A stretch of DNA of 23,031 nucleotides from Blastocatellia bacterium (GTDB taxonomy: Bacteria; Acidobacteriota; Blastocatellia; Pyrinomonadales; Pyrinomonadaceae). The notes below the pieces were generated by a model. That model was not told the DNA's origin and did not search any database. It saw only the letters and a list, made by a program, of their open reading frames with translations. Positions 1-20,129 of this stretch are shown in pieces. Numbering within the stretch: position 1 is the stretch's first letter; every line of letters starts with the position of its first letter. The DNA lies in NCBI GenBank assembly GCA_003175865.1, contig PSRF01000083.1, positions 1 to 23,031 on the forward strand. Direction: 5' to 3'. The position numbers and the translations under genes are program-made.

Positions 1-506
1 CGTTGTGCACCGGCAATTTCAATGGCTGCATCGACCACGAGTGTCAACACATCATCAGGTGCTAATGAGAACTTGAAAGCCTGGTTGATTTCTACATAGC
101 GGGCCAGGTTTTTGAGCTTTTCCTTTGCAGTTGCGGCTGATTGGTGTTCGCCGATGCTCTGTGGGATTTCCGAGGCCGAGGACAAGGCTTCTGCTGCATC
201 AATGGTTGCGATGAATTGAATCTTATAGTCGTCAGCGCCACCAAGACTAATATTGTCGAGGTTTGAAAGCGCGATCCGCTCCACACGCTGCCCGTTAAGA
301 AAAACGCCACTCTTACTGCCTTTGTCTACGAGATAATAAACGCCATTCTCTAGAACTATCTCTCCGTGGTTTCGAGAGACACTCGTAGACATGATGTGTA
401 GATCGCTATCGACCTTACGACCGATCGTGAACACCGGCTTTCGGAGGGGCACGGTTCGGCGAACACCAAAGCCGTCTGTTACTTTTAGGCAGGCCCTCGA
501 TTCCAT
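1..506 (-). CDS. FHA domain + GAF-like protein, N-terminal part only (cut by window edge)
   Basis: The gene starts at the ATG at 506 and reads to the window edge without a stop, giving 168 residues. I translated it by hand. Residues about 5-100 form a forkhead-associated domain: G29-R30, then S44-R45-N46-H47 (the SxxH phosphothreonine-binding signature) and N71-G72 after the DKGSKSG turn. FHA domains bind phosphothreonine peptides. Residues about 132-168 (ARYVEINQAFKFS onward) look like the helix that opens a GAF domain. In related proteins FHA-GAF is often followed by a PP2C/SpoIIE phosphatase or a diguanylate cyclase, but the C-terminus lies outside the window, so the output domain is unknown. 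It begins 28 bases after the STAS gene on the same strand, so the two probably share a transcript. No clear Shine-Dalgarno is visible. FHA identity is firm, GAF is likely, and a phosphatase output is only an inference. Confidence 0.85.
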   Translation of the reverse strand, partial: MESRACLKVTDGFGVRRTVPLRKPVFTIGRKVDSDLHIMSTSVSRNHGEIVLENGVYYLVDKGSKSGVFLNGQRVERIALSNLDNISLGGADDYKIQFIATIDAAEALSSASEIPQSIGEHQSAATAKEKLKNLARYVEINQAFKFSLAPDDVLTLVVDAAIEIAGAQ

Positions 507-534
507 CGTGCCAATCTGCACTAAGAATTAAGAT

Positions 535-870
535 TTAGAAGGACGAAACGGCTGTTGCTTCGTCATCGAAAGTTTCGAACACAGAAAGTAAACCTGTGAT
601 CGAAAGAAGCTGCCGGGCCAAGGGTGTCGGCTTTAACAGCTTGACCTTGCCGCCCTGTCCTTTCGCGTGAGTGAACGACTTTACGAGGCTTCCTATACCC
701 GAACTGTCGATCATCGGGACGTCAGCAAGATTAAGTAGAAGGTATTTCTGATCGGTGCCAAGTAGTTCCTCGACGCGTTGACGCAGGCTTTCCTCAGCGG
801 CTCCGATAGTAAGGTTTCCTTGTAAGTCAAGGATGGTTACATTTCCTGTTGATCTGAGATTAATGTCCAT
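535..870 (-). CDS. STAS-domain anti-sigma-factor antagonist (SpoIIAA/RsbV-like)
   Basis: This 111-residue protein is a single STAS domain, the usual length for SpoIIAA/RsbV. The diagnostic loop D55-S56-S57-G58-I59-G60 is intact; by comparison with Bacillus SpoIIAA, S57 is the residue phosphorylated by the partner HATPase kinase. In that family the unphosphorylated antagonist binds the anti-sigma kinase and frees the sigma factor, and phosphorylation switches it off. The protein starts MDINLRSTG and should be cytosolic. Its likely partners are close by: a HATPase anti-sigma kinase is divergent (1217-1768) and an FHA-GAF gene follows 28 bases downstream. No sigma factor lies in the window, so the final target is unknown. 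There is no good Shine-Dalgarno before the ATG at 870, but no better start exists. Confidence 0.93.
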   Translation of the reverse strand: MDINLRSTGNVTILDLQGNLTIGAAEESLRQRVEELLGTDQKYLLLNLADVPMIDSSGIGSLVKSFTHAKGQGGKVKLLKPTPLARQLLSITGLLSVFETFDDEATAVSSF

Positions 871-1213: not shown

Positions 1214-1216
1214 GTG

Positions 1217-1768
1217 ATGCCTACGCAGCTCCCCCTACTGGTTTTGGCTCGAAACGACGAAGCGCGATCGGCGCTTGAGAAAGAACTTCGCGCGAAGCAG
1301 CTATTTCTGAAAATTATTCAACGTAAAGTCCAGCCAAACGCCACAGCGGTTCTTGAGATGCCAAGCGACTTGGCCTTCCTGGAACCAGTAACAAATTATC
1401 TTACACGTCGCGTTAATAAGATGTGGTCCATTTCGGCCGATAAATCCCAGGCCCTTGGAATCGCCCTACAGGAGGCGCTGGTCAACGCGATCAAACACGG
1501 TAATCGCAATAACCCGGAGAAGCGAGTCCGCATCACCGCCGAGCTTTCTAGTGAGGAAGCGAAGTTTGTAGTGGAAGACGAGGGCGAGGGTTTTGAAAAG
1601 GACCACCCTCCCAATCCACTAAACCCGGCAAACTTATACAAACCGTCCGGACGTGGGGTGTTGCTTATCAAATCGATTATGGACAAAGCGGAATACAACC
1701 ATCGAGGCAACATAGTTACGATGGTCAAAACCCGTTCAACTTTGGATCATCCATTGACGGCCTCGTAA
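1217..1768 (+). CDS. Anti-sigma regulatory factor / HATPase Ser-Thr kinase (RsbW-like)
   Basis: The protein has the GHKL ATPase boxes of RsbW/SpoIIAB-type anti-sigma kinases. In the numbering from the GTG at 1214 these are an N-box with E87 and N91 (EALVNAIKHGN), a G1 box D122-x-G124-x-G126-F127 (DEGEGFE) and a G2 box at G146-R147-G148. Such proteins bind ATP, phosphorylate a STAS antagonist and hold a sigma factor inactive; the divergent STAS gene is the obvious partner. The HATPase core starts near residue 48 (LEMPSDLAF). The first 45 residues are an extension not typical of RsbW, with a short receiver-like start (LPLLVLARNDEARSALEKEL). GTG 1214 and ATG 1217 are adjacent and in frame; I chose the ATG. 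No strong ribosome site is visible for either. The gene converges with the large kinase gene, 29 bases apart. It could act on a sigma factor or on another target. Confidence 0.9.
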   Translation: MPTQLPLLVLARNDEARSALEKELRAKQLFLKIIQRKVQPNATAVLEMPSDLAFLEPVTNYLTRRVNKMWSISADKSQALGIALQEALVNAIKHGNRNNPEKRVRITAELSSEEAKFVVEDEGEGFEKDHPPNPLNPANLYKPSGRGVLLIKSIMDKAEYNHRGNIVTMVKTRSTLDHPLTAS

Positions 1769-1797: not shown

Positions 1798-4700
1798 TCA
1801 ACCTCTAACGCGCAGACTCGCATAGTTGACAGCCACGTTGCCAAACGACAACGAAAGTCCTTCGACTTCGGGTCTGACAAAACGGTAAGTCTGTTCGTGG
1901 AACAATGGGACCAACAAGCTGTCTCGCACAATAGTCTCTTCAATCTGACGGTAGATCGCGTGGCGTGCTGCAGGTGAAGTTTCTGAACGGCCACGAGCAA
2001 TCAGCCGATCCACCTCGGGTGAGCCACACAGTCGACCCAAGAGGCCCTCTTTGGTATCCAGGATATTTGCAAAACTGTCTGCGTCCGGAAAATCAGCTCC
2101 CCAACGACCCAAGACAAAATCGACATTGCCGCGTGTTGTCGCCTCGACCCACTCCTCCATAGTCTTGTTCACGGTTTTAATGATGACATTCTGTTCGCGA
2201 AGTGCACTGGCGGCTTCACGTGCAAACCCGGAGTACTCACCGAAGAATACTGGGTTGAGTACCGCAGTTAACTCAACCTTTTCAGGTGCGGGTTTCGCTG
2301 TGGCCGAAGAGCTACCTGCGTGTTTTGAGACGTAAGCCGGATCATGACCGAGCAGCCCTGGCGCGATCAGTCCTCGCGCAGGGATGGCAAGTCTGCCGAG
2401 TGTTTGTCTAACAATACTCCCGACGTCGATTGCCTGCACCAGTCGCTGGCGTAAAGCTTTGTCCTTGAGTGGTCCACTGTGCGTATTGAATGCAGCGTAG
2501 TAAGTGATCAGGCGCGGAACTTCATGATACCTGGAGACAAACTCCGGATCTCTTCTCAAAGCTTCTGCATCTGCGGGCAACAAGTCTGAAGCAAGCGAGA
2601 GTCGCCCGTCGCGGAATTGCGTGAGAATGTCTGACGGAGCGACTCCAAGATGGAAGACGAGTTGGTCGACTTTTGGATATCCGGTGCGCCAGTAGTCCTT
2701 GTGCCGTTCGAGTTCGACCCGGACACCCGGTTCAAACTTTACGACGCGGAATGGACCAGTGCCGACACTTCCTTCCTGCCAGGAATTACCAAATTTATCG
2801 CTTCCTTCAGGGACAATTGCCGCGGCGTGGTACGAAATAAGGGCAGGGAAGGTAGCGATGGGGTCATCGAGTTCAATTGTGAATTCATCGGAGGAGTGAA
2901 TACGAAATCCACTCAAGTCTGACTGTTCGCCATTGATTAACGCCTTGGCGCCGCGAATCGCCGAGTAGAAATGACGGCCTCTACTCTCTGGGTTTGCCAG
3001 GAGTCTTTCGAACGAGTACCGAACATCCCGTGCAGTGAGTTTTCGGCCATCATGAAAACGGACATCGTCTCGGAGACGGAATCGATAGCTCCTGCCACCT
3101 TGTTCCAGAGTGAAGTCTGTAGCTAACCATGGAACAATCCTTGCGCCGCCAATATCAGAGGTTAGCGTTTCGAATACGCTCGGCAAGATTTCAGCGTCTT
3201 CCAAGGTCGATGCTAGAGACGGATCCAGGTACTGGAGTTGACCTGTAATCGCGACCTGAATTGTCCCACTGGTCGCACGAACATCTGCTGCTTTTACGGC
3301 CGCTTCAAGTTTTCCAATTTCATTGTAGTTAACGTACGGCGCACTGCCGCGAAGGGTCAGACCAACGATCTTGGAGTTCGCAAGGCGATAATCAACGTCG
3401 TGGAATAGAGGTACTAGAATCCCGGAGTCCTGCAAGAAGGTTTCATACTTTCGGTAGAGACTAGCTCGAACAGCAGGACGACTTTCGGTGCGCGCTTCTT
3501 CCAAAAATTGATCCCCATCCGAATTTGAAATGTACGGACGATATAGACCAACCTTCGAATGAAAAAGCGAGTAAGTAAAATCGTCGGGATCATCGTAATC
3601 GACATTCCATCTGCCAATGAACAGGTCTATTCCGCTCGAATTCTGAAATGAGTCCAAATACGCGGCCATAGTTGGCGTGGCAACTTCGACTTTGATCCCG
3701 AGTTCGGACCAGAGCGAAAGCAGCGCGGTTAACAGTGACTTGTATCTGTCGAGGAAGATCGGGTGGACTGAGGCGCGCAAGGTAACTGAACCGTCAACTC
3801 CCGCTGAAGTAAGCATCGCTTTTGCTTCTTCGAGCGTAATCGTGTGTCGACGACGGCCAGGATCATAACCAAGCATTGCAGGTGGAATAAGGCAGACTGC
3901 GGGTTGCGCAAAACGACCAACTGCCTGCCACACGAGATCGTGCGTGCGAATAACGCCGGAGAGGGCACGACGAAACTCTGGCTTCAACGTGACTGAACCG
4001 GCGGCAGAGTTGAAGAGAACGAAGTAGGTATTCTTGCGTGGTGCTTCCACGAGGCCGCTGCGAAAACGTGGATCGCGTAAAAAGTCTTCAAGATCCTCAG
4101 GAGACAAGTCGCGTGCGAGGTCTATAGATCCAGCTCGAAGTCCTGACGCGATCTCTGATGCGCTCAGGCCCGCTCGAAATTCAACTTCATCGAGGGATGT
4201 GGGCGCTCCCTTCCAGTAATTCTCATTTCGCTCAAGCACTAGACGATCAGAGTTGTAAGAGGCGATCTTGAATGGCCCAGTGCCAATGGGCGTCGATCCA
4301 TTACTTCCGTTTTCGGTTTCAAGCGTGATGCCTGTTTTGAAGTCAGTGAGTAGCGCTGGATAGATCGAAAGGGGATCTGAGAGTTGTATTTCGATCTTGT
4401 TGTCTGCGTGAACAATTATTCCGGACAGTTGTTCGTCCGTGCTCTTTGCGAATTCAGCTGCACCTCGTATCGCTGCTAAGCCTGGCGGAAGATCCCTTGC
4501 TCTCTTAATACTATGTTCGAATGAGCGCTTAAATGCCTCGGCCGTTAGTGGCTGACTGTTAGCGAAACGCACCCCATCTCGTAAAGTGAACGAGACCGAT
4601 GCTCCATCGGCGGCGACTTCCCACTTTTCACATAACGCAGGAACTAGATTACCTTCTGAATCAGTCGCTAATGGAGTTTCGAAAACATTGGCGAGGATCT

Positions 4701-7443
4701 CCTGCTCTTCAACCAGCTCCATATTGACTGGATGAATCTCGGCGAGCGGCGTCGCCATTGCCACAACAAGACGACCGCCCTTCGGAATTTCCTGTTGATG
4801 TTCAGTTTCTTTTCCACCAGGCGCGAGTGCCGCAGCTTCTTCGAGATAGCCGTTTGCCTTTTCATACTCGCCACGCATGTTCGCGAGAGTTGAGGCCAGT
4901 GACAGCGCATGTCGCAAACTTTCATTGTCCTGCGCCTTGCGCGCTGCTTCCATCACCTGCGGAACAAGGCGAGTCGTTTCTTCAACCTTGCGAGTCTGCC
5001 AGGCAGTTTCAGCCGCGAAGAGAAGAGCTTTAACCGCTGGTCCAGTGTGGCCTTCGCGTTGCAATATGCGAGCACTTGCTTCAGCTTCCTTCAGTGCAGC
5101 CTCAATATCGCCGGCCATTCGATAAGACTGCGCCAACAACATCCTCGCCTCGCCTTCCACTGCGGGGTCGCCTTCCCACTCCTCATCAAGAAACTCGAGT
5201 ACAGTCCTTGACGCGCGCGCTGCTTCTTCACTACTGAACGCATCCAGTGCAGCTTTGGCCATACGCAAACCGTATTCGACTGTCTTGTTTGGAACGTCCC
5301 CTTGTGAGAAGTGGTGAACGAGTTGTGGATACACGCGTTCAAGCCGTCCGCCATGCCGCTTTTCAACTTCTTCTGCGTACTTACGGTGTAATGATCGACG
5401 CTTGCGTCGCGACAGTCCGGAGTACAAAACGTCACGCACAACACGACTGGAAAAGTTCAAACGATCACCGCGTGATTCACGTTCTTCCTCGAGCAGGCCT
5501 TCTTCGACTAAACGATCGATCGCGTCTTCAACATCTTTCCCACCAGCCAGTGCTTCGAGATCACGAAAATCGAAAGCGCGACCAATCACAGATGCAATCG
5601 ACAACACTTCGCGAAGTTCTTCAGGCAAGCGTTCGATACGTTTCTCAACTGCCTGTTGAATCGTCGCCGGCATGTCGCCACTCGAGAGATCAGTTGTTGC
5701 GCCTAAACTCCAGGCACCGGTCTGGTCCTTTGCAATACCACCCGAGTCGAGGAGCGAACGAACGAGTTCTTTCGTGAAGTACGCGTTGCCCTCGGTTCCT
5801 TCGTAAAGTTTCTCTACGAGGGTATCGGACAGTTTTGGGCCACCGATAAGTGTTTCAAGGAACAGTTTATGTTCAGCAGGTGAGAAAGGCTCGAGCGCGA
5901 TCGTCGCGAAGCGTCGATCACCTCGAAAACTGTCGAGCATGCGAAGCAATGGATGCGATCGATCAACTTCACTAGAACGATAAGTACCGATGATTAGTGT
6001 GGGTGTCGGTCCAAGGCGTCTGACAATGTATTGCAGCGCTTCAATCGAAATCTCTGCCGCATGCAGGTCTTCGAGGAAGAGAATGAGTGGATTTCCGGCA
6101 GCGAGACGTATCAGAGTGCGAGCCAACAATTCAAAAACTTGTGTACGATTTTCTGGTCCCGGTGATGCACCTAATTGCAACAACTTTGAATCGCCCGTAG
6201 CTGCGGCGCGAATCTCACTGATTTCCGTCAGCATCGGAAACAGAGAAACAAGATCAGGTGCGACGTCAGACAGATCTATCAAGCTGGGAGCGCTCGACGA
6301 GTCACGTTGGCGGAAGTATTCCTGAATGGCTTCACAAAAACCTTGATACGGAAATGCGCCGTCTTGTTCGATTGAGCGACCGTGAAGAACGGGCAGTTTT
6401 CTTGCCTTTGCGAGGTTCTCGATCTCGTCGAGCAGACGTGTTTTGCCAACACCCGGTTCACCTGACACGACCACGAACTGGCATTCACCACTAATCGCAA
6501 CGTTCAAACGTCGTTGTAGCTCAGCGAGTTCACCTTCCCTCCCTATAAAAGGAGAGAGCGCGACTCGTGGCAGCATCATCGTTCGTGTGAGTACGACCGA
6601 TTTGCCGAGATCACTCTGGTTGATTCTCGACTGACAACGTCTGAGCAGAGTGATGAATTCGCTGGCGCGCTGTGGTCTCTTAGCAGGTTCCTTGGCAATG
6701 CAATAGAGGATCGCTGCTTCGAGATCTTCGTTGATGTCTGCTCCGAATCCGCGCGGCGATTGCGGGATCTCATGAACAATCCGATAAAGAATCGATTGTA
6801 GTTCACCTGAGAACGGCGGCTCACCTGCAACACACTCGAATAAGACTGTGCCCAGTGAATAGATGTCGGTGCGGTGGTCGATGCCGCTGCCTGACACCTG
6901 TTCAGGACTCATGTATGAGAGTGTGCCGGCAATCGTGCCGCTCTTTGTGATCTTGGTTTCAGTGGCGCCACGTGCGAGTCCAAAATCCATCACTCGAACT
7001 CGAATACGAGAACTTTCGTCACGCGCAACCATGATGTTTTCCGGTTTGATGTCGCGATGTACGACGCCTCTTGAGTGGCTGTATTCGAGTGCTTCTGCTA
7101 CCTGGACGCCGATGTCCAGGACTTCACCAAGTGTGAGGGACCCTTCACGTTGAAACCAGCGCAAATCAGTTCCATGTACTACTGGCATAATGAAGAAGAG
7201 TGAGCCTTCGTGTTTACCAAAATCGAAGATTGGCACGATGGCCGGATGGTCCATCTGCGCGACCAGCTGAGCTTCGCGTTGAAAACGTTGCTCCGACTCA
7301 GGGCTCAATAATGTGGGCGGAATCAGTTTGATGGCTACTTCCCGATTAAGCAGTGGGTCATGAGCTCGATAGACCACGCCCATGCCACCGCGTCCCAGTT
7401 CCGCCTTGATGTCGTACCTGTTGGAAAGCTTCTGACCGATCAT
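1798..7443 (-). CDS. Giant soluble Ser/Thr kinase fused to AAA ATPase, TPR-like region and two SBP family-5 domains
   Basis: 1881 residues, read from the ATG at 7443. Residues about 10-270 are an Hanks-type Ser/Thr kinase with every key residue: glycine loop G17-x-G19-x-x-G22, K39, E57, H129-R130-D131 with K133 and N136, D153-F154-G155 and S179-P180-E181. Residues about 297-680 are an AAA/STAND-like ATPase with Walker A GEPGVGKT (328-335) and Walker B LILFLEDLH (453-461). Residues about 685-875 are TPR-like helices. Two solute-binding modules of the oligopeptide/nickel-binding type (SBP_bac_5) follow, about 888-1375 and 1392-1875. They share matched landmarks: GTGPFKI/GTGPFRV, NYWKG/DYWRT and GRWNVDYDDPDDF/GRWGADFPDADSF. 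No hydrophobic segment of membrane length and no signal peptide are seen, so the binding domains should be cytoplasmic. E. coli SgrR is a known precedent for a cytoplasmic domain of this family used as a sensor. The kinase-AAA-TPR part is a familiar actinobacterial/acidobacterial layout; the double SBP tail is the unusual part. Ligand and substrate are unknown. Confidence 0.92.
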   Translation of the reverse strand: MIGQKLSNRYDIKAELGRGGMGVVYRAHDPLLNREVAIKLIPPTLLSPESEQRFQREAQLVAQMDHPAIVPIFDFGKHEGSLFFIMPVVHGTDLRWFQREGSLTLGEVLDIGVQVAEALEYSHSRGVVHRDIKPENIMVARDESSRIRVRVMDFGLARGATETKITKSGTIAGTLSYMSPEQVSGSGIDHRTDIYSLGTVLFECVAGEPPFSGELQSILYRIVHEIPQSPRGFGADINEDLEAAILYCIAKEPAKRPQRASEFITLLRRCQSRINQSDLGKSVVLTRTMMLPRVALSPFIGREGELAELQRRLNVAISGECQFVVVSGEPGVGKTRLLDEIENLAKARKLPVLHGRSIEQDGAFPYQGFCEAIQEYFRQRDSSSAPSLIDLSDVAPDLVSLFPMLTEISEIRAAATGDSKLLQLGASPGPENRTQVFELLARTLIRLAAGNPLILFLEDLHAAEISIEALQYIVRRLGPTPTLIIGTYRSSEVDRSHPLLRMLDSFRGDRRFATIALEPFSPAEHKLFLETLIGGPKLSDTLVEKLYEGTEGNAYFTKELVRSLLDSGGIAKDQTGAWSLGATTDLSSGDMPATIQQAVEKRIERLPEELREVLSIASVIGRAFDFRDLEALAGGKDVEDAIDRLVEEGLLEEERESRGDRLNFSSRVVRDVLYSGLSRRKRRSLHRKYAEEVEKRHGGRLERVYPQLVHHFSQGDVPNKTVEYGLRMAKAALDAFSSEEAARASRTVLEFLDEEWEGDPAVEGEARMLLAQSYRMAGDIEAALKEAEASARILQREGHTGPAVKALLFAAETAWQTRKVEETTRLVPQVMEAARKAQDNESLRHALSLASTLANMRGEYEKANGYLEEAAALAPGGKETEHQQEIPKGGRLVVAMATPLAEIHPVNMELVEEQEILANVFETPLATDSEGNLVPALCEKWEVAADGASVSFTLRDGVRFANSQPLTAEAFKRSFEHSIKRARDLPPGLAAIRGAAEFAKSTDEQLSGIIVHADNKIEIQLSDPLSIYPALLTDFKTGITLETENGSNGSTPIGTGPFKIASYNSDRLVLERNENYWKGAPTSLDEVEFRAGLSASEIASGLRAGSIDLARDLSPEDLEDFLRDPRFRSGLVEAPRKNTYFVLFNSAAGSVTLKPEFRRALSGVIRTHDLVWQAVGRFAQPAVCLIPPAMLGYDPGRRRHTITLEEAKAMLTSAGVDGSVTLRASVHPIFLDRYKSLLTALLSLWSELGIKVEVATPTMAAYLDSFQNSSGIDLFIGRWNVDYDDPDDFTYSLFHSKVGLYRPYISNSDGDQFLEEARTESRPAVRASLYRKYETFLQDSGILVPLFHDVDYRLANSKIVGLTLRGSAPYVNYNEIGKLEAAVKAADVRATSGTIQVAITGQLQYLDPSLASTLEDAEILPSVFETLTSDIGGARIVPWLATDFTLEQGGRSYRFRLRDDVRFHDGRKLTARDVRYSFERLLANPESRGRHFYSAIRGAKALINGEQSDLSGFRIHSSDEFTIELDDPIATFPALISYHAAAIVPEGSDKFGNSWQEGSVGTGPFRVVKFEPGVRVELERHKDYWRTGYPKVDQLVFHLGVAPSDILTQFRDGRLSLASDLLPADAEALRRDPEFVSRYHEVPRLITYYAAFNTHSGPLKDKALRQRLVQAIDVGSIVRQTLGRLAIPARGLIAPGLLGHDPAYVSKHAGSSSATAKPAPEKVELTAVLNPVFFGEYSGFAREAASALREQNVIIKTVNKTMEEWVEATTRGNVDFVLGRWGADFPDADSFANILDTKEGLLGRLCGSPEVDRLIARGRSETSPAARHAIYRQIEETIVRDSLLVPLFHEQTYRFVRPEVEGLSLSFGNVAVNYASLRVRG

Positions 7444-15200: not shown

Positions 15201-15565
15201 GTGATTTGAACACCACTGACCGACCATATTATGCACCTCGCAATTCTGGACGTGGCGAGAACTACTACAACGTCGATCTGAGATTCAGTAAACGATTCTA
15301 TTTTCATCCGAATTCGGAAGGGGCAAACGCAGAGGTTATTGTCGAGGCAACAAATTTTTTCAATCACCCCAACTTTCTCCGCGTTAATGACGTAGTTTGC
15401 GGCACGACAGCCCAACCGGGGTTCATCAACGGGTGTGATCCGAAATTTCTAACAGGCCCATTTGACTTCAGGGGAATACCAGGTCTTCCACCGACAGCTC
15501 CTTTAGGGTTTGTCACGGCAGCCTCGGCGCGACAATTTCAGTTCGGACTCAAGTTTGAGTTGTAA
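12260..15565 (+). CDS. Oar-like TonB-dependent outer-membrane receptor with N-terminal carboxypeptidase-regulatory-like domain
   Basis: 1101 residues from the GTG at 12260. A signal peptide is read at about 45-68 (TRLLFVITSVFLGLSVG, cleavage near VLAQ-AD). Residues about 74-156 are a carboxypeptidase-regulatory-like beta-sandwich (GVVIDQSDSPVANATITV, TDDEGNYRLPILQPGVYELRV). A plug follows at about 185-300 (GNYISIDGGEND, SVEAVQEFQVNRNAYTAEYG, INVVTRSGANAFHG), then a long barrel ending RQFQFGLKFEL. This is the Oar-type layout common in Acidobacteriota; such receptors import or sense bulky substrates with energy from TonB. I see no clear TonB box. The n-region before the signal peptide is unusually long, so the true start may be later: GTG 12290 has GAGGA four bases upstream. 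Seven bases after its stop comes the histidine-kinase start, which suggests co-transcription and a shared ligand. Ligand is unknown. Confidence 0.92.
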   Translation: MDPCLFTEEVVFHSAPLTPSPSARSPLIALFFRLSAAAFLCAKVTRLLFVITSVFLGLSVGAQIVLAQADVAKATMKGVVIDQSDSPVANATITVSDTQRGIARSSKTDDEGNYRLPILQPGVYELRVDAAGFKPQVLHKVVLTVGQISVHDIKLELNPINELVNIRELPSLVETERTQQSETIERRQIANLPNLPRNFTSYIFTLPGVADVASARVQQTRVAPTPNSGFSVGGGNGRGNYISIDGGENDSGVGSLRIRNLSVEAVQEFQVNRNAYTAEYGFSMGTAINVVTRSGANAFHGSGYLFYRSEKTAARDPLNTTGQKAHEQRISPGFTFSGPLARNKAFFFTSFEALRYDVDRLRSYTSNTSLLQPTGAQSVYLQSLISGPSATDTTRRIASQLRSALTTTNYATTMQLLQKSEGRFTAPTRTYNWTTRLDYNHGGRNFLNGRFTLAKEDNNLLSSNNVESPTDAILERLDDYTAVGTWGHIFRDGLINQFRAQFSFDDYKQVSAAPESTLIRIAGLIDYGRVLTIPSVTRQKRYQFDEVINWSRGKQDFKFGASYRPVDADLVNELGFGGIFTFAAGQPVTRALSPIDAAFLTGPLAPPADTTLTSLQAFDLGIPSNWQQGFGNPGFHAWQQTFGSFAEVSWRMTPRFIVNLGARLNFDGEPKPLDHNLSISPRVGFAWDPFGKGRTVLRGGFGTFYAPVSLQVLSAATLQSDSGQFINLQSRTLQDGAQSTQALWAFGVNLGKLPLVALSDQDVRAFGITPGPQQPNRRIAEAAADYNNPYAVQASLGLSQDIGHGLVLEVAGQMYHGVHLPIAIEGNYRESGQFVSVPGLPGSDLFGPRLERIDPSISQKIIHSSEGNSIYYGMTSSLVKRFSKGFQFRASYTYSKAIDDVLDFTGASTPYLPTRRYVDRGLSGYDLRHSFIFSGSYETPFSGTSNENWLARALAHVTLSPIATLRSGFPFNLYIGRDVNGDLNTTDRPYYAPRNSGRGENYYNVDLRFSKRFYFHPNSEGANAEVIVEATNFFNHPNFLRVNDVVCGTTAQPGFINGCDPKFLTGPFDFRGIPGLPPTAPLGFVTAASARQFQFGLKFEL

Positions 15566-15572
15566 CGAGTGT

Positions 15573-17450
15573 ATGCAGACAAAAGGGTTCGAATCTATCA
15601 GTTTGTTTGGTGCAGCTTGGCTCATGCTTGCTTTATGTACTGCACCGCTCGTTGCGCAAGAAACCGGAACGAACAAGAGAATCCTCATTCTGTTCACGCA
15701 TGAGTCGCATCTTCCCGCACAAATAATGGTCGAAGAAGCGATGCGTTCTACCTTGCAGTCTGGTTCGACTGAGTCGCTCGACATCTATTCAGAATATCTC
15801 GACGCAGTACGCACACCGCTTGCCGATTATGAGAAGAATCTCGTTGAACAACTGCAGCGGAAGTACGGAGGAAAAAAATTCGACCTGATCTTTTGTGTAA
15901 ATCCTCCAGCGTTGAAGTTTGCGCTAAAGAACCGCTCGACGTTGTTTCCGAATGTCCCTCTGGTTTTTCTTGTGTTGGACCAACGCAACCTTGATGGTTT
16001 GGACCTCGGCTCGAACGTAACGGGTGTATGGGGCGAAGGCAATTACCGATCAAACCTTGATTTGGCTCTGACGCTACAACCCGGAACAAAGCGAGTGGTT
16101 GTAATTTCTGGAGTTGGGGAATGGGACAACTACTGGCGGTCAAGAGTGAAAGAAGAGTTTCGTCCGTTGGCGGAGACAATTGAGTTCACCTATCTCACGG
16201 GTCTGAGCATTCCAGAACAGAAGGACGCACTCAAGACTTTACCGCCACATACGATCGTGTTTTTCGTTTCGAGTACTCAAGACAATGCAGGCAGCAACTA
16301 CGGCAATGTTGAAGTGCTTCGACAAATCTCTCCAACATCTAGTGCGCCTATTTATGGCACAACCGACGCTCACCTCGGATTTGGAATTGTTGGAGGTCGA
16401 CTCATCAGCTTTGATGCGTTTGGAGTCGGCGGAGCACAGGTTGGTTTGCGCGTGTTGGCAGGAGAGAGACCAGACTCGATTGCGCCTCACGGAATTGCCA
16501 GCGTTCCTATGTTTGACTGGCGTGAACTTAAGCGATGGGGGATCAGTGAAGACAGACTACCGCCGGGCAGCGTCGTGAAGTTCAAGCAGCCTAGTTTCTG
16601 GGCGGAGTATCGCGGCCGCATTATTATTGCCATTAGTCTTCTTGCACTGGAGTCATTTGTTATCGCCTTGCTGCTGATCGAAAGGAGGCGACGCCAGCGT
16701 GCGAAAGAGGCACTCGATCAACTCAATGCTCAACTCGAAGGGCGTATCACTGCACGGACGGCTGCTCTCGACGCGAAGACTCGCGAACTCGAAACTTTCG
16801 CATACTCAGTCGCCCATGACCTCAAAGCGCCACTCCGTGGTATCGACGGTTACAGTCGACTCCTACTCGAGGACCACTCCGAACAACTCAACGAAGAAGG
16901 CCGTTCATTCCTGACAACTATTCAGAATTCAACCGAAGAAATGGGTCAGTTGATCGAAGATCTGCTTGATTACTCTCGCGTTGAACGCCGCGAGTTGAAG
17001 CCAGATCGTATTGAGTTGAAGTCGATCGTTCAGAAGGTCGTCGAACAGGAAAAGCGAGATCCGACTGATCGCAAGATCGATTTTGTCGTTAATGTCAACG
17101 GCGGGACTGTGATGGCTGATGTCAATGGTCTGACACAGGCCCTTAAGAACTATCTCGACAATGCGATCAAGTTCACTCGGAATGTCGAACACGCTCGCAT
17201 CGAGGTTGGAGCGGAAGAGAAAACGAACGGCTGTGTGTTATGGGTGCGAGACAACGGTATTGGGTTCGATATGAAGTATCACGATCGCATCTTCAATATT
17301 TTTCAACGCCTGAATCGATCTGAGGATTATTCCGGCACAGGCGTGGGTCTGGCGATTGTCCGCAAGGCAATGGAGCGCATGGGTGGTCGCGCATGGGCCG
17401 AAAGTGACCCGGGCAAGGGCGCTACTTTTTATTTGGAGATTCCAAAGTAA
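15573..17450 (+). CDS. Membrane sensor histidine kinase with periplasmic ABC-substrate-binding-like domain
   Basis: 625 residues from the ATG at 15573. A longer frame from TTG 15510 would overlap the receptor gene and bury the signal peptide, so I reject it. Residues 1-29 are a signal peptide ending LVAQ. Residues about 34-320 look like the periplasmic ABC substrate-binding family PF04392/COG2984 (KRILILFTHES, FDLIFCVNPPALKFAL, PNVPLVFLVLD, TKRVVVISGVGEW, APIYGTTDAHLGFGIVGG). A membrane helix follows at 349-369, then a coiled segment, a HisKA dimerisation helix with H415 (SVAHDLKAP), an N-box with N526 and N530, G1 DNGIGFD (560-566), an F-box FNIFQRLNR and G2 GTGVGLAIV (588-596). All catalytic boxes are intact. 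It lies between the outer-membrane receptor and two regulators, so it probably senses a periplasmic ligand delivered by that receptor and phosphorylates the next gene product. The ligand is not inferable; PF04392 relatives are often linked to aromatic or amino-acid uptake. Confidence 0.9.
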   Translation: MQTKGFESISLFGAAWLMLALCTAPLVAQETGTNKRILILFTHESHLPAQIMVEEAMRSTLQSGSTESLDIYSEYLDAVRTPLADYEKNLVEQLQRKYGGKKFDLIFCVNPPALKFALKNRSTLFPNVPLVFLVLDQRNLDGLDLGSNVTGVWGEGNYRSNLDLALTLQPGTKRVVVISGVGEWDNYWRSRVKEEFRPLAETIEFTYLTGLSIPEQKDALKTLPPHTIVFFVSSTQDNAGSNYGNVEVLRQISPTSSAPIYGTTDAHLGFGIVGGRLISFDAFGVGGAQVGLRVLAGERPDSIAPHGIASVPMFDWRELKRWGISEDRLPPGSVVKFKQPSFWAEYRGRIIIAISLLALESFVIALLLIERRRRQRAKEALDQLNAQLEGRITARTAALDAKTRELETFAYSVAHDLKAPLRGIDGYSRLLLEDHSEQLNEEGRSFLTTIQNSTEEMGQLIEDLLDYSRVERRELKPDRIELKSIVQKVVEQEKRDPTDRKIDFVVNVNGGTVMADVNGLTQALKNYLDNAIKFTRNVEHARIEVGAEEKTNGCVLWVRDNGIGFDMKYHDRIFNIFQRLNRSEDYSGTGVGLAIVRKAMERMGGRAWAESDPGKGATFYLEIPK

Positions 17451-17461
17451 GTGGTTCTAGT

Positions 17462-17887
17462 ATGAATGATTCGATCGGACCCATCCTCATCGTTGAAGAC
17501 AGACCCATCGATCTGGATCTGACGAAACGGGCATTCGTACGACGCCGCTTGCTAAATCCGATTCTGGAAGCGCGTGACGGCGAAGAAGCACTCGACTACA
17601 TCGACAGATGGGACGCAGGTGAGCCGGTGCCGGTGTTGATCCTTCTCGATCTCAGATTGCCAAAGGTAAACGGGCTGGAGGTTTTGCAGCGCCTTAAGCT
17701 TCACCCGAAGTATTCGGCAATACCCATAATTGTTTTGACTACCTCTGGCGAGGACGCAGACATTCACGAAGCTTACAGACTGGGATGCAACTCTTACATC
17801 GTGAAACCTGTCGATTTCGATAATTTCATGGAAGTGGCTTCCCAAATAGAAATCTATTGGTGCGCACTCAATACAGCTCCCCGATGA
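17462..17887 (+). CDS. Single-domain response regulator (CheY/Rcp1-like)
   Basis: 141 residues, one receiver domain with no output domain. Key residues are present: acidic pair E12-D13 (IVEDRP), phosphoacceptor D63 (LLDLRLPKVNG), T93/T94 in the switch strand (IIVLTTSG) and K115 (IVKPVDF). The spacing and KVNGLEVLQRLK segment are like Rcp1-type regulators, which pair with phytochrome-type histidine kinases carrying an AHDLKAPLR motif; the adjacent kinase has that motif. It starts 11 bases after the kinase stop and ends 4 bases before the sigma-54 activator. It probably serves as a phosphate carrier or sink, or acts by protein contact. No DNA-binding segment is present. Confidence 0.93.
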   Translation: MNDSIGPILIVEDRPIDLDLTKRAFVRRRLLNPILEARDGEEALDYIDRWDAGEPVPVLILLDLRLPKVNGLEVLQRLKLHPKYSAIPIIVLTTSGEDADIHEAYRLGCNSYIVKPVDFDNFMEVASQIEIYWCALNTAPR

Positions 17888-17891
17888 AATC

Positions 17892-20129
17892 ATGAGAATT
17901 CTCTACGTCGAAGACGACGCCCGTGATGCAGACATTACTATTCGGATGTTGCGCAAGGTTGCGCCTTCTTTTGAGGTGGAGACAGTCTCTACGATCGAGG
18001 ACGCACTTAAACGTTTGGAGCACCTTAGCACCGATCCACTCGATCTCGTGTTGACCGATGTGCATGTGAACAATGGAGATGGTCGGTCCTTGCTACAGCA
18101 CATACGCGAAAACTCTCTGCCGCTCGCAGTCGTTGTGGTCACAGGAATGGGTGATGAAGAAACTGCTGTTACCGCACTAAAAGCTCGTGCCGACGATTAT
18201 GTCGTCAAGAGCAAGGGGTATCTCGAACGTCTGGCGATCACGCTTGAAAGTGCACTCAATCATTACCGAGCGGATGCGGCTCGTCTCGCTCGTTCACTTA
18301 ACGTGCTGTATGCGGGTGAAGACCAACGCGAAATAGAAGACGCCCGTCGTCACTTTGCCATTCATGCAAATCACATTCGGCTCGACTTCGTCTCTAAACA
18401 AGAAGCATTTGGATTAGTGGTATCCCAAAGGCGCGATCGTAAGTATGACGTCGTAGTTGTAGATCTTGATCTTGACGAGTTCAAGGCGTTTGAAGTGTTA
18501 AGGGAACTGCAGCTGAATTCACGAGACATACCCATTGTTCTTCTGTGCAGTGATAAGAATGAAGAGTTGATGCGCCGTGGTCTAAAGTTGGGCGCGACGA
18601 CTTATATGATCAAGCGTCCAGGCTACCTATTCAGGTTGTCTTGGGAAATTGAGGACGCAAACATCCGCGCTGACTTGCAGCGGCGTGAAGCTGCTTTCAG
18701 GGCAAGCGAAGAACGATTGCGGCTGGCCCAAGAAGCGGCTCGCGTTGGAACATGGGAATGGGACGTGCGGACAGGTGCCTCAGTCTGGTCAGAAATGCTC
18801 TGGGACTTACTTGGTTTGAGTCCTGACGATGAACCGGTCACTGTCGAGAGGTTTGTCTCATTCATCCATCCGGAAGATCGCGACCGCGCCTTGTGTAATG
18901 TCAACGAGGTGATTCTGAACGGTGAAGAGTACAACGATGAGTTTCGTATCGTTCGTCGCGATGGAAGTTCACTGTGGCTTGCGTCGAAAGGTCGGCTTAT
19001 CAGAGGCGAGGATGGTACGGCTGAGCGAATGCTCGGCGTCAACATCGACATCAATGAACGAAAATTAGCCGAACAATCTCTCAAGCTCGCACTGACTGAG
19101 GTGCAGCAGCTCAAGGACCGTCTGTACCAGGAAAATATTTACCTGCAGGAAGAAATTCGTCTTGCGAGTCAATTCGATGAGATCATCGGTCATAGCGATG
19201 CGATCAAGCGAGTGTTGCAAATGGTCGAACAGGTCGCACCGTTGGATACGACTGCCTTAATTCTCGGAGAGACTGGTACCGGCAAAGAACTCTTTGCTCA
19301 TGCCATTCACAGTCTGAGCGCGCGCAAGCACAAACCACTTGTCAAAGTTAATTGTGCAGCGTTACCCGTGAACCTGATCGAAAGCGAGTTGTTTGGTCAC
19401 GCGAGAGGTGCTTTTACGGGAGCGCAGGGACAACGTACAGGACGCTTTGAGATTGCTAACCACGGCACGATCTTTCTCGATGAAATCGGCGAATTACCTC
19501 TTGATCTGCAAGCAAAATTACTCCGCGTTTTAGAAGAAGGCGAATTTGAGCGAGTCGGTGATAGTCACACTATAAATGTCAACGTGCGTGTAATTGCAGC
19601 GACAAATCGAAATCTGGAAGAAAATGTAAAAGCTGGGCTCTTTCGATCGGATCTCTATTACCGATTGAGCATCTTTCCCCTCACCCTGCCGGCGTTGAGA
19701 GAGCGACGCGAAGACATTCCTTTGTTGGTGAAGCATTTTGTGAAGCAGTTTGGTTCCAAGTTTGGCAAGGAAATCGACGCTATTCCCCAGGAAGCCATGA
19801 ATGTTTTAAGGAGCTATCCCTGGCCGGGAAACATTCGTGAGTTGAGAAACGTCGTTGAGCGAGCAGTTATTGTGACCCAGGGACCGAAGTTACGACTACT
19901 TGATACCTTGGAGTCAGTGCGCCTGGAAGCAGAAGCGCGAATAGAGGTGGAGGACGTTGAGACGCTCGAGTCAAGCCAATACAACTTGATATTGCGAACG
20001 CTGAAGAAAACGCATTGGCGAATTGAAGGAAGTTACGGTGCGGCAGCGGCGCTTAAGATCAATCCGAGTACTCTGCGAACGCGAATGAAGAAGTTAGGAA
20101 TCACGAAGCCAGGCGGAGCTGCGCATTAA
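17892..20129 (+). CDS. Sigma-54-dependent activator with REC-REC-PAS-AAA-Fis layout
   Basis: 745 residues. REC1 (1-122) has D8-D9, phosphoacceptor D56, T84 and K106. REC2 (about 135-255) is divergent, with G142-E143-D144 in the acidic pocket, D191 at the acceptor position, C219-S220 at the switch position and K241. A PAS domain of the PAS_3 kind follows (about 275-392; WEWDVRTGASVWSE, HPEDRDR, NIDINERK), then a coiled linker (395-425). The AAA+ domain (428-655) has Walker A GETGTGKE (459-466), the sigma-54 contact loop GAFTGA (506-511), Walker B FLDEIGEL (528-535) and PWPGNIREL (643-651). A Fis-type helix-turn-helix ends the protein (about 695-737, AAALKINPSTLRTRMKKLG). The protein should open sigma-54 promoters when the upstream kinase phosphorylates REC1, with the PAS domain as a second input. 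It starts 4 bases after the single-domain regulator, so translation is probably coupled. No sigma-54 promoter is visible in this window, so the targets are likely elsewhere. Confidence 0.94.
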   Translation: MRILYVEDDARDADITIRMLRKVAPSFEVETVSTIEDALKRLEHLSTDPLDLVLTDVHVNNGDGRSLLQHIRENSLPLAVVVVTGMGDEETAVTALKARADDYVVKSKGYLERLAITLESALNHYRADAARLARSLNVLYAGEDQREIEDARRHFAIHANHIRLDFVSKQEAFGLVVSQRRDRKYDVVVVDLDLDEFKAFEVLRELQLNSRDIPIVLLCSDKNEELMRRGLKLGATTYMIKRPGYLFRLSWEIEDANIRADLQRREAAFRASEERLRLAQEAARVGTWEWDVRTGASVWSEMLWDLLGLSPDDEPVTVERFVSFIHPEDRDRALCNVNEVILNGEEYNDEFRIVRRDGSSLWLASKGRLIRGEDGTAERMLGVNIDINERKLAEQSLKLALTEVQQLKDRLYQENIYLQEEIRLASQFDEIIGHSDAIKRVLQMVEQVAPLDTTALILGETGTGKELFAHAIHSLSARKHKPLVKVNCAALPVNLIESELFGHARGAFTGAQGQRTGRFEIANHGTIFLDEIGELPLDLQAKLLRVLEEGEFERVGDSHTINVNVRVIAATNRNLEENVKAGLFRSDLYYRLSIFPLTLPALRERREDIPLLVKHFVKQFGSKFGKEIDAIPQEAMNVLRSYPWPGNIRELRNVVERAVIVTQGPKLRLLDTLESVRLEAEARIEVEDVETLESSQYNLILRTLKKTHWRIEGSYGAAAALKINPSTLRTRMKKLGITKPGGAAH

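Follow-up and report, generated by a model that had tools for sequence, protein, structure and literature searches.

The DNA analysed here, called the window, is a 23,031-nt stretch of contig PSRF01000083.1 from Blastocatellia bacterium GCA_003175865.1. It contains a complete gene for a protein with, in this order, a Hanks-type Ser/Thr kinase, an AAA_16 P-loop ATPase, a TPR superhelix and two complete SBP_bac_5 domains, SBD1 and SBD2 (Table 1). The original prediction had placed a kinase, a P-loop ATPase, TPR-like helices and two family-5 solute-binding domains on this one polypeptide, and domain searches together with a structure model found all of them. Mean identity of 36 relatives to the window protein was 82-85% in the kinase and ATPase, 74% in the TPR part and 71-72% in the SBDs, and the two linkers around SBD1 were the least conserved parts (51-55%). 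The predicted structures had pTM values of 0.55 and 0.66, and the relative placement of the domains was therefore left uninterpreted. A viral structure library gave no match to the modelled structures at E ≤ 0.001.

Table 1. Features of the window, with the loci of MCPsignal-SBP_bac_5 fusions discussed in the text.
Feature	Position	Strand	Remarks
FHA protein	3-521	-	
STAS protein, anti-anti-sigma-like	535-870	-	
RsbW-like HATPase	1214-1768	+	Convergent to the kinase gene
Kinase-ATPase-TPR-SBP-SBP gene	1798..7443	-	Complete, 1881 aa
SBD2, second SBP_bac_5 domain	1801..3267	-	Residues 1393-1881
SBD1, first SBP_bac_5 domain	3328..4779	-	Residues 889-1372
TPR superhelix	4819..5283	-	Residues 721-875; structure model, Pfam TPR below cut-off
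ATPase lid and probable winged-helix region	5284..5943	-	Residues 501-720; GN motif 552-553
AAA_16 P-loop ATPase	5944..6555	-	Residues 297-500; Pfam, conserved motifs
Hanks-type Ser/Thr kinase domain	6619..7443	-	Residues 1-275; Pfam Pkinase 10-258
MCPsignal-SBP_bac_5 fusion	L063:4484-7567		
MCPsignal-SBP_bac_5 fusion	L065:5467-8565		
MCPsignal-SBP_bac_5 fusion	L067:362-3583		

The kinase domain scored 168.8 bits against Pfam Pkinase, and its best matches in the PDB were PknB structures. It has the sequence hallmarks of a Hanks-type kinase: a glycine loop (GRGGMGVV, residues 17-24), the VAIK lysine (K39), HRD within HRDIKPEN (129-136) and DFG (153-155), with activation-loop threonines at T166, T170 and T174. 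K39, R130, N136, D153 and the three threonines were kept in all 37 aligned rows, and D131 in 36 of them. When strict motif patterns were applied to 51 sequences, Walker A fitted 40 and the other patterns 37 to 50. One or two patterns were missed by P0049, P0018, L073 (start cut), L087, L089 and L095, and all five kinase patterns failed, as expected, in the form with a winged helix-turn-helix (wHTH) domain described below.

The ATPase carries GREGE (residues 301-305), Walker A GEPGVGKT (328-335) and Walker B ED (458-459). R302, E305, G331, G333, K334, E458 and N553 were kept in all 41 aligned relatives, D459 in 35 and R489 in 39. These include the motifs that we take to define STAND proteins (hhGRExE, Walker A and the acidic Walker B). 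No dedicated STAND, NACHT or NB-ARC profile of Pfam exceeded its cut-off in the window protein; nSTAND3 and NB-ARC matched at only E 0.06-0.08, below cut-off, and AAA_16 was the profile that passed. We therefore call the ATPase STAND-like. In the predicted model, helical repeats come after a P-loop ATPase, and the TPR hairpins apparently start near residue 667. A match to an Orc1/Cdc6 structure covered model residues 19-402. The structure matches listed for the ATPase-TPR model were filled by TPR entries, so that the absence of STAND structures among them is uninformative. As to the STAND-type switch of the original prediction, the motifs (41 of 41 relatives) and the P-loop with helical repeats are present, no STAND profile passes, and the switching itself would be a function suggested by these features. 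Because the catalytic and ATPase residues are conserved across the relatives, the kinase is likely active and the ATP-binding switch likely functional.

Both SBDs matched the SBP family 5 profile (PF00496), and structure prediction of the C-terminal half gave complete SBP folds with both lobes (mean pLDDT of the SBD model, 86.2). The closest solved relatives of both include peptide-binding proteins. In HMMER alignments, D1784 of SBD2 fell on Asp419 of E. coli OppA, as counted on the printed alignment, and D1282 of SBD1 fell on the matching aspartate of MppA; the two residues also occupied the same column in an alignment of 89 domains. In OppA, Asp419 holds the amino group of the bound peptide. 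At this position, SBD1 had aspartate in 26 of 29 sequences (2 E, 1 S) and SBD2 in 23 of 25 (the others A and S), as opposed to none of the 29 exported SBP_bac_5 proteins that were aligned from the bacterial family of the source genome (26 G, 1 R, 2 gaps). The exported control set comprised the 30 highest-scoring loci of one bacterial family, taken as longest frames without curated starts. From this aspartate only we infer the ligand class, which in most of the family is perhaps a peptide or another amino-bearing compound; a single residue is weak evidence, and an aspartate at one site is not enough to establish that peptides are bound.

With the two-SBD region as the query, a search of 5.8 billion proteins gave 880 matches among 7992 candidates scored. 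The best 120 of the 880 all covered 98-100% of this region, and 109 of them (query included), from several sources, had kinase, AAA_16 and SBP_bac_5 domains in 1854-1901 amino acids. The other 11 of the best 120 were shorter (1049-1659 aa) and without a kinase profile, two being named 'partial' by their source. Where the databases give names, those of NCBI are mostly 'ABC transporter substrate-binding protein' and those of JGI often cite both halves, so that the signalling role is easily missed. An alignment of 37 full-length members had a mean column identity of 83%.

Within the class, 19 of 162 genomes matched at E ≤ 1e-40. The tandem-SBD protein was found in nine of the 162 (G000, G006, G009, G010, G012, G013, G039, G041 and G043), and contig ends broke it in G009 and G013. 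The other ten genomes matched with one SBD, and the two of them that were scanned, G141 and G021, carry MCPsignal. Across the phylum, 12 of 297 genomes held the family at E ≤ 1e-100, with at least 16 genes; of the 16 read, 15 encode a kinase (two in tandem in one case) and one a wHTH domain instead. The numbers of genes per genome are minimum values, because at most five candidates per genome were scored in the class search and at most two in the phylum search. Presence across genomes is patchy, and some nearly complete genomes of the genus are without the protein (e.g., G004, 98% complete). Of the 80 loci kept in a scan of GTDB contigs, 26 (L071-L096, 21 assemblies) belong to the family, including MAGs labelled Acidobacteria gp7, gp22, Thermoanaerobaculia, Planctomycetota, Polyangia and Myxococcales; these labels are those of the records, and the MAGs may be contaminated. 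The other 54 loci matched the ATPase-TPR part only (query residues up to 619), although one of them (L125) also matched SBD2 weakly, in another frame.

Eighteen of the 26 loci carry the two SBDs in a single frame, and at each of these the leading domain was closest to SBD1 and the trailing one to SBD2. An unrooted FastTree of 89 SBDs separated SBD2 (support 1.000), SBD1 (0.999) and a group of exported domains and those of the MCPsignal fusions (0.999); one of the 30 exported sequences, which had no 300-residue match, and two of eight MCP-type loci were left out. The consistent order, with which the tree agrees, indicates that the SBD pair is old. The sequences are compatible with an origin of SBD1 and SBD2 by an old internal duplication, and since the tree is unrooted, the SBDs may also have been captured independently.

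The original prediction had also claimed that the protein lacks a signal peptide and a membrane segment, and had named such elements as evidence for a C-terminus outside the cell. In the window protein, a KD value of 1.6 was not reached by any 19-residue stretch, and hydropathy revealed no export or membrane signal; the signal peptide or lipobox of an exported ABC-type solute-binding protein was not found. In close relatives, KD 1.6 was just exceeded in 2 of 37 (1.62 and 1.65), inside the ATPase and SBD1. Among 25 more distant relatives, nine had a 19-residue stretch at KD 1.6-1.89, in every case inside kinase, ATPase or SBD segments. Exported-type SBP_bac_5 proteins from the bacterial family of the source genome served as a positive control, and 27 of 30 reached KD 1.6 in their first 90 residues.

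Further evidence on placement came from a relative with a different output. In Blastocatellia MAG SSF51 (L034:10495-15825, JAIBAN010000126.1; the same locus as L079), a Trans_reg_C domain of the OmpR/CadC type (59.5 bits) replaces the kinase, and the same frame continues with AAA_16, TPR and two SBP_bac_5 domains. In this relative, the aspartate of SBD1 is replaced by serine. Since a DNA-binding output requires the cytoplasm, this swap places the C-terminal sensor there. A search with residues 1-800 of the wHTH relative gave no second example among the best 120 of 834 matches, and the swap thus rests on one MAG. Placement of the window protein in the cytoplasm is therefore supported both by its sequence and by the output swap.

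SBP_bac_5 domains also occur behind MCPsignal, in a second large family. Of the best 120 of 1217 matches (P0191-P0310), 111 carried both domains; such proteins have about 1030 amino acids, with SBP_bac_5 following MCPsignal in all three scanned from other class members. The six examined had no N-terminal hydrophobic segment (best value 1.24 in the first 60 residues), and two of them had internal KD peaks within the SBD (2.04 and 1.67). Five of the six SBDs had aspartate at the OppA Asp419 position, and the sixth had a gap. In local alignments, identity to SBD2 was 28-34% for the MCP-SBDs (6 proteins), compared with 21-30% for the exported proteins (30 proteins). These fusions are apparently cytoplasmic chemoreceptors with a solute-binding domain. 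Taken together, the absent export and membrane signals, the wHTH swap and this soluble family agree with the soluble intracellular receptor kinase that had been predicted.

Other variations were found in the number of domains. A relative of 2141 amino acids (L186:2545-8970) has two tandem kinase domains before the ATPase, a layout that database matches of 2128-2152 amino acids (P0160, P0162, P0176, P0177, P0180 and P0185) may share. L036 (1436 aa), which is internal to its contig, has just one SBD, of the SBD2 type, showing that two SBDs are not always needed. Two further candidates for one-SBD forms, L035 and L040 from genome G039, both stop at contig ends and were left uncounted for this reason.

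The source genome (3.57 Mb, 436 contigs, 62% complete) gave 58 Pkinase match rows, some of which are halves of one frame. At this completeness, it showed no MCPsignal match and no SBP_bac_5 match beyond SBD1 and SBD2; SBP_bac_5 matches were present in all 40 genomes of the bacterial family sampled, the source genome included. A second copy of the gene (L037:10962-13440, G000 contig C131) is 68% identical over residues 1-816 and is cut by the contig end. It adjoins three other Ser/Thr kinase genes, two kinase-TPR and one kinase-PD40, and a TPR protein. A partner-switch operon of the window gene with the adjacent FHA, STAS and RsbW-like genes, whose products are typical of partner switches, was considered and rejected, as the RsbW-like frame is convergent and the neighbours are not conserved: none of the three had a blastp match (E ≤ 1e-5) in 15 stretches of the family (L026-L040), several of them cut by contig ends. 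More broadly, no Pfam family was matched by more than three of 82 neighbour frames at 22 loci (E ≤ 1e-5; 25 of 96 families listed), the frames being chosen by a greedy longest-ORF rule and not by a gene caller. The stretches examined thus hold no conserved gene neighbourhood pointing to a ligand or target. Elsewhere in the window (15510-20129) lies a histidine kinase that has two hydrophobic segments (30-48 and 371-389) and, in the part between them, no Pfam match at E ≤ 0.001; after it come a receiver-like frame and a receiver-PAS-sigma54 activator. A neighbour frame of the wHTH relative (L034:1992-5840, 1282 aa) has a kinase-like match near its C-terminus (930-1206).

We favor, with a probability of about 60%, the reading that the window protein is a soluble cytoplasmic one-protein receptor kinase, in which SBDs that perhaps sense a peptide or another amino-bearing ligand would act through a STAND-like ATPase/TPR switch. 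A small molecule of the cytoplasm, most likely a peptide or free-amino compound, would be bound by one or both OppA-like domains, and closure of the cleft would be relayed to the TPR superhelix and the ATPase through a short linker at approximately residues 874-890. This could then switch an ATP-dependent self-association that brings kinase domains together, so that activation-loop phosphorylation follows and the kinase informs its substrates of the nutrient or peptide status. Control of the kinase by ligand binding is plausible, and the ATP switch, the oligomerisation and the substrates are putative. Counting against this model are the single-MAG wHTH swap with the serine in its SBD1, the lack of a conserved neighbourhood, the patchy presence, the one-SBD relative L036 and the hydrophobic stretches in nine of the 25 more distant relatives.

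Alternatively, the tandem SBDs might no longer bind a ligand and might instead form a rigid arm through which an ATPase-controlled kinase dimerises or docks its substrates. We know of no ligand, kinase activity or ligand effect for any family member, and the SBDs vary more than the kinase and ATPase among the 36 relatives. However, both folds are predicted to be complete with both lobes, and most SBD1 and SBD2 domains retain the cleft aspartate, which is absent from the exported controls; a lost function would be expected to erode it. We hold this alternative to be unlikely. SBP_bac_5 proteins are normally extracytoplasmic and classically feed ABC importers, and peptide-binding proteins are among the closest solved relatives of the SBDs. 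The SBDs could on these grounds recognise the same ligands as an ABC peptide importer, with the kinase phosphorylating the transporter or its regulators. This is improbable, since no ABC importer family was among the 25 of 96 listed for the neighbour frames, and a protein without an export signal cannot meet the importer's periplasmic face.

The usual location of the family would also suit a partly exported or membrane-bound protein whose C-terminal SBDs are periplasmic as in ordinary receptor kinases. The hydropathy of the window protein speaks against this, the two marginal segments in close relatives lie inside folded domains, and the wHTH relative must act in the cytoplasm; the idea is already contradicted and has very little left in its favor. 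Finally, the original prediction had allowed for a frame that joins separate genes by assembly error, to which a fragmented and incomplete genome could lend color. The recurrence of the same one-protein layout in at least 109 homologues contradicts such a join, and we give it practically no credence.

Beyond the single protein, we tentatively propose that such cytoplasmic receptor kinases form a widespread class, present in Acidobacteriota and some further phyla, in which duplicated OppA-like domains, relocated into the cell, would sense cytoplasmic peptides and gate a STAND-like ATPase that switches on Ser/Thr phosphorylation. Considered along with the MCPsignal fusions and the wHTH swap, SBP_bac_5 would be a general intracellular sensor cassette for different outputs. 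We consider this possible rather than probable. If true, solute-binding domains have moved inside the cell and been reused with at least three outputs, namely a kinase, DNA binding (in one MAG) and a chemoreceptor. The presumed sensor is cytoplasmic and covalently attached to its kinase, and the ligand range of its fold is easy to screen, which opens the stimulus of one kinase family to direct testing.

Comparison with NCBIfam models showed that the window protein fits none of the named equivalog families tested. The PknB-type PASTA kinases (NF033483) are closest in the kinase domain by sequence, in agreement with the PDB matches, yet the window protein has neither a transmembrane segment nor a PASTA match (E ≤ 0.1) and scored 302.4 bits against a cut-off of 450. 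The TOMM kinase/cyclase fusion (TIGR03903) resembles the ATPase-TPR part, with the best stretch at residues 297-884; the whole protein scored 280.3 bits against a cut-off of 705.75, and it adds two SBP_bac_5 domains after the TPR. The SgrR model gave 43.7 bits, with the best stretch in SBD2 and a cut-off of 476. The acidobacteriotal MCPsignal-SBP_bac_5 proteins share a soluble signalling output, a C-terminal SBP_bac_5 and, in five of six, the same aspartate, but have a chemoreceptor output and one SBD, with no ATPase or TPR; to our knowledge, no functional study of them exists. No description of the kinase-ATPase-TPR-SBP-SBP layout was found among the titles and opening lines of abstracts listed in searches of open-licence papers, and a prior mention elsewhere is possible.

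Fusions of a kinase with a solute-binding domain appear in a table of actinomycete siderophore clusters (PMC13293324). As we interpret its columns, five of 55 SBP_bac_3 proteins have a further domain, with Pkinase in 100%, whereas the only further domain among 221 SBP_bac_5 proteins is a TAT_signal in one. Those proteins thus also join a kinase to a solute-binding domain, but of family 3 and with one SBP domain each. Kinase and family-5 names merely co-occur in one table of PMC6821194, and the relevant passages of PMC9602780 make no mention of such fusions. The original prediction had invoked SgrR as a precedent for a cytoplasmic SBP_bac_5 sensor, an analogy that is sound in its logic: passages of a preprint on DsvR, an SgrR homologue, describe an HTH with SBP_bac5 (PMC13060122). 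SgrR of E. coli and DsvR of V. cholerae resemble the window protein in having SBP_bac_5 C-terminal to the output domain (PMC13060122, for DsvR). Theirs is a single SBD behind an N-terminal DNA-binding domain, without kinase, ATPase or TPR, in contrast to the kinase and two SBDs of the window protein; the wHTH relative has the DNA-binding domain but also ATPase, TPR and two SBDs. The PknG/GlnH/GlnX system of Actinobacteria likewise combines a kinase, TPRs and input from a solute-binding protein, which the activity of the kinase is proposed to follow (PMC6069109, PMC8546545). There, GlnH is described as a separate putative lipoprotein that senses in the periplasm, and GlnX signals across the membrane, whereas in the window protein kinase, TPRs and family-5 SBDs form one cytoplasmic chain.
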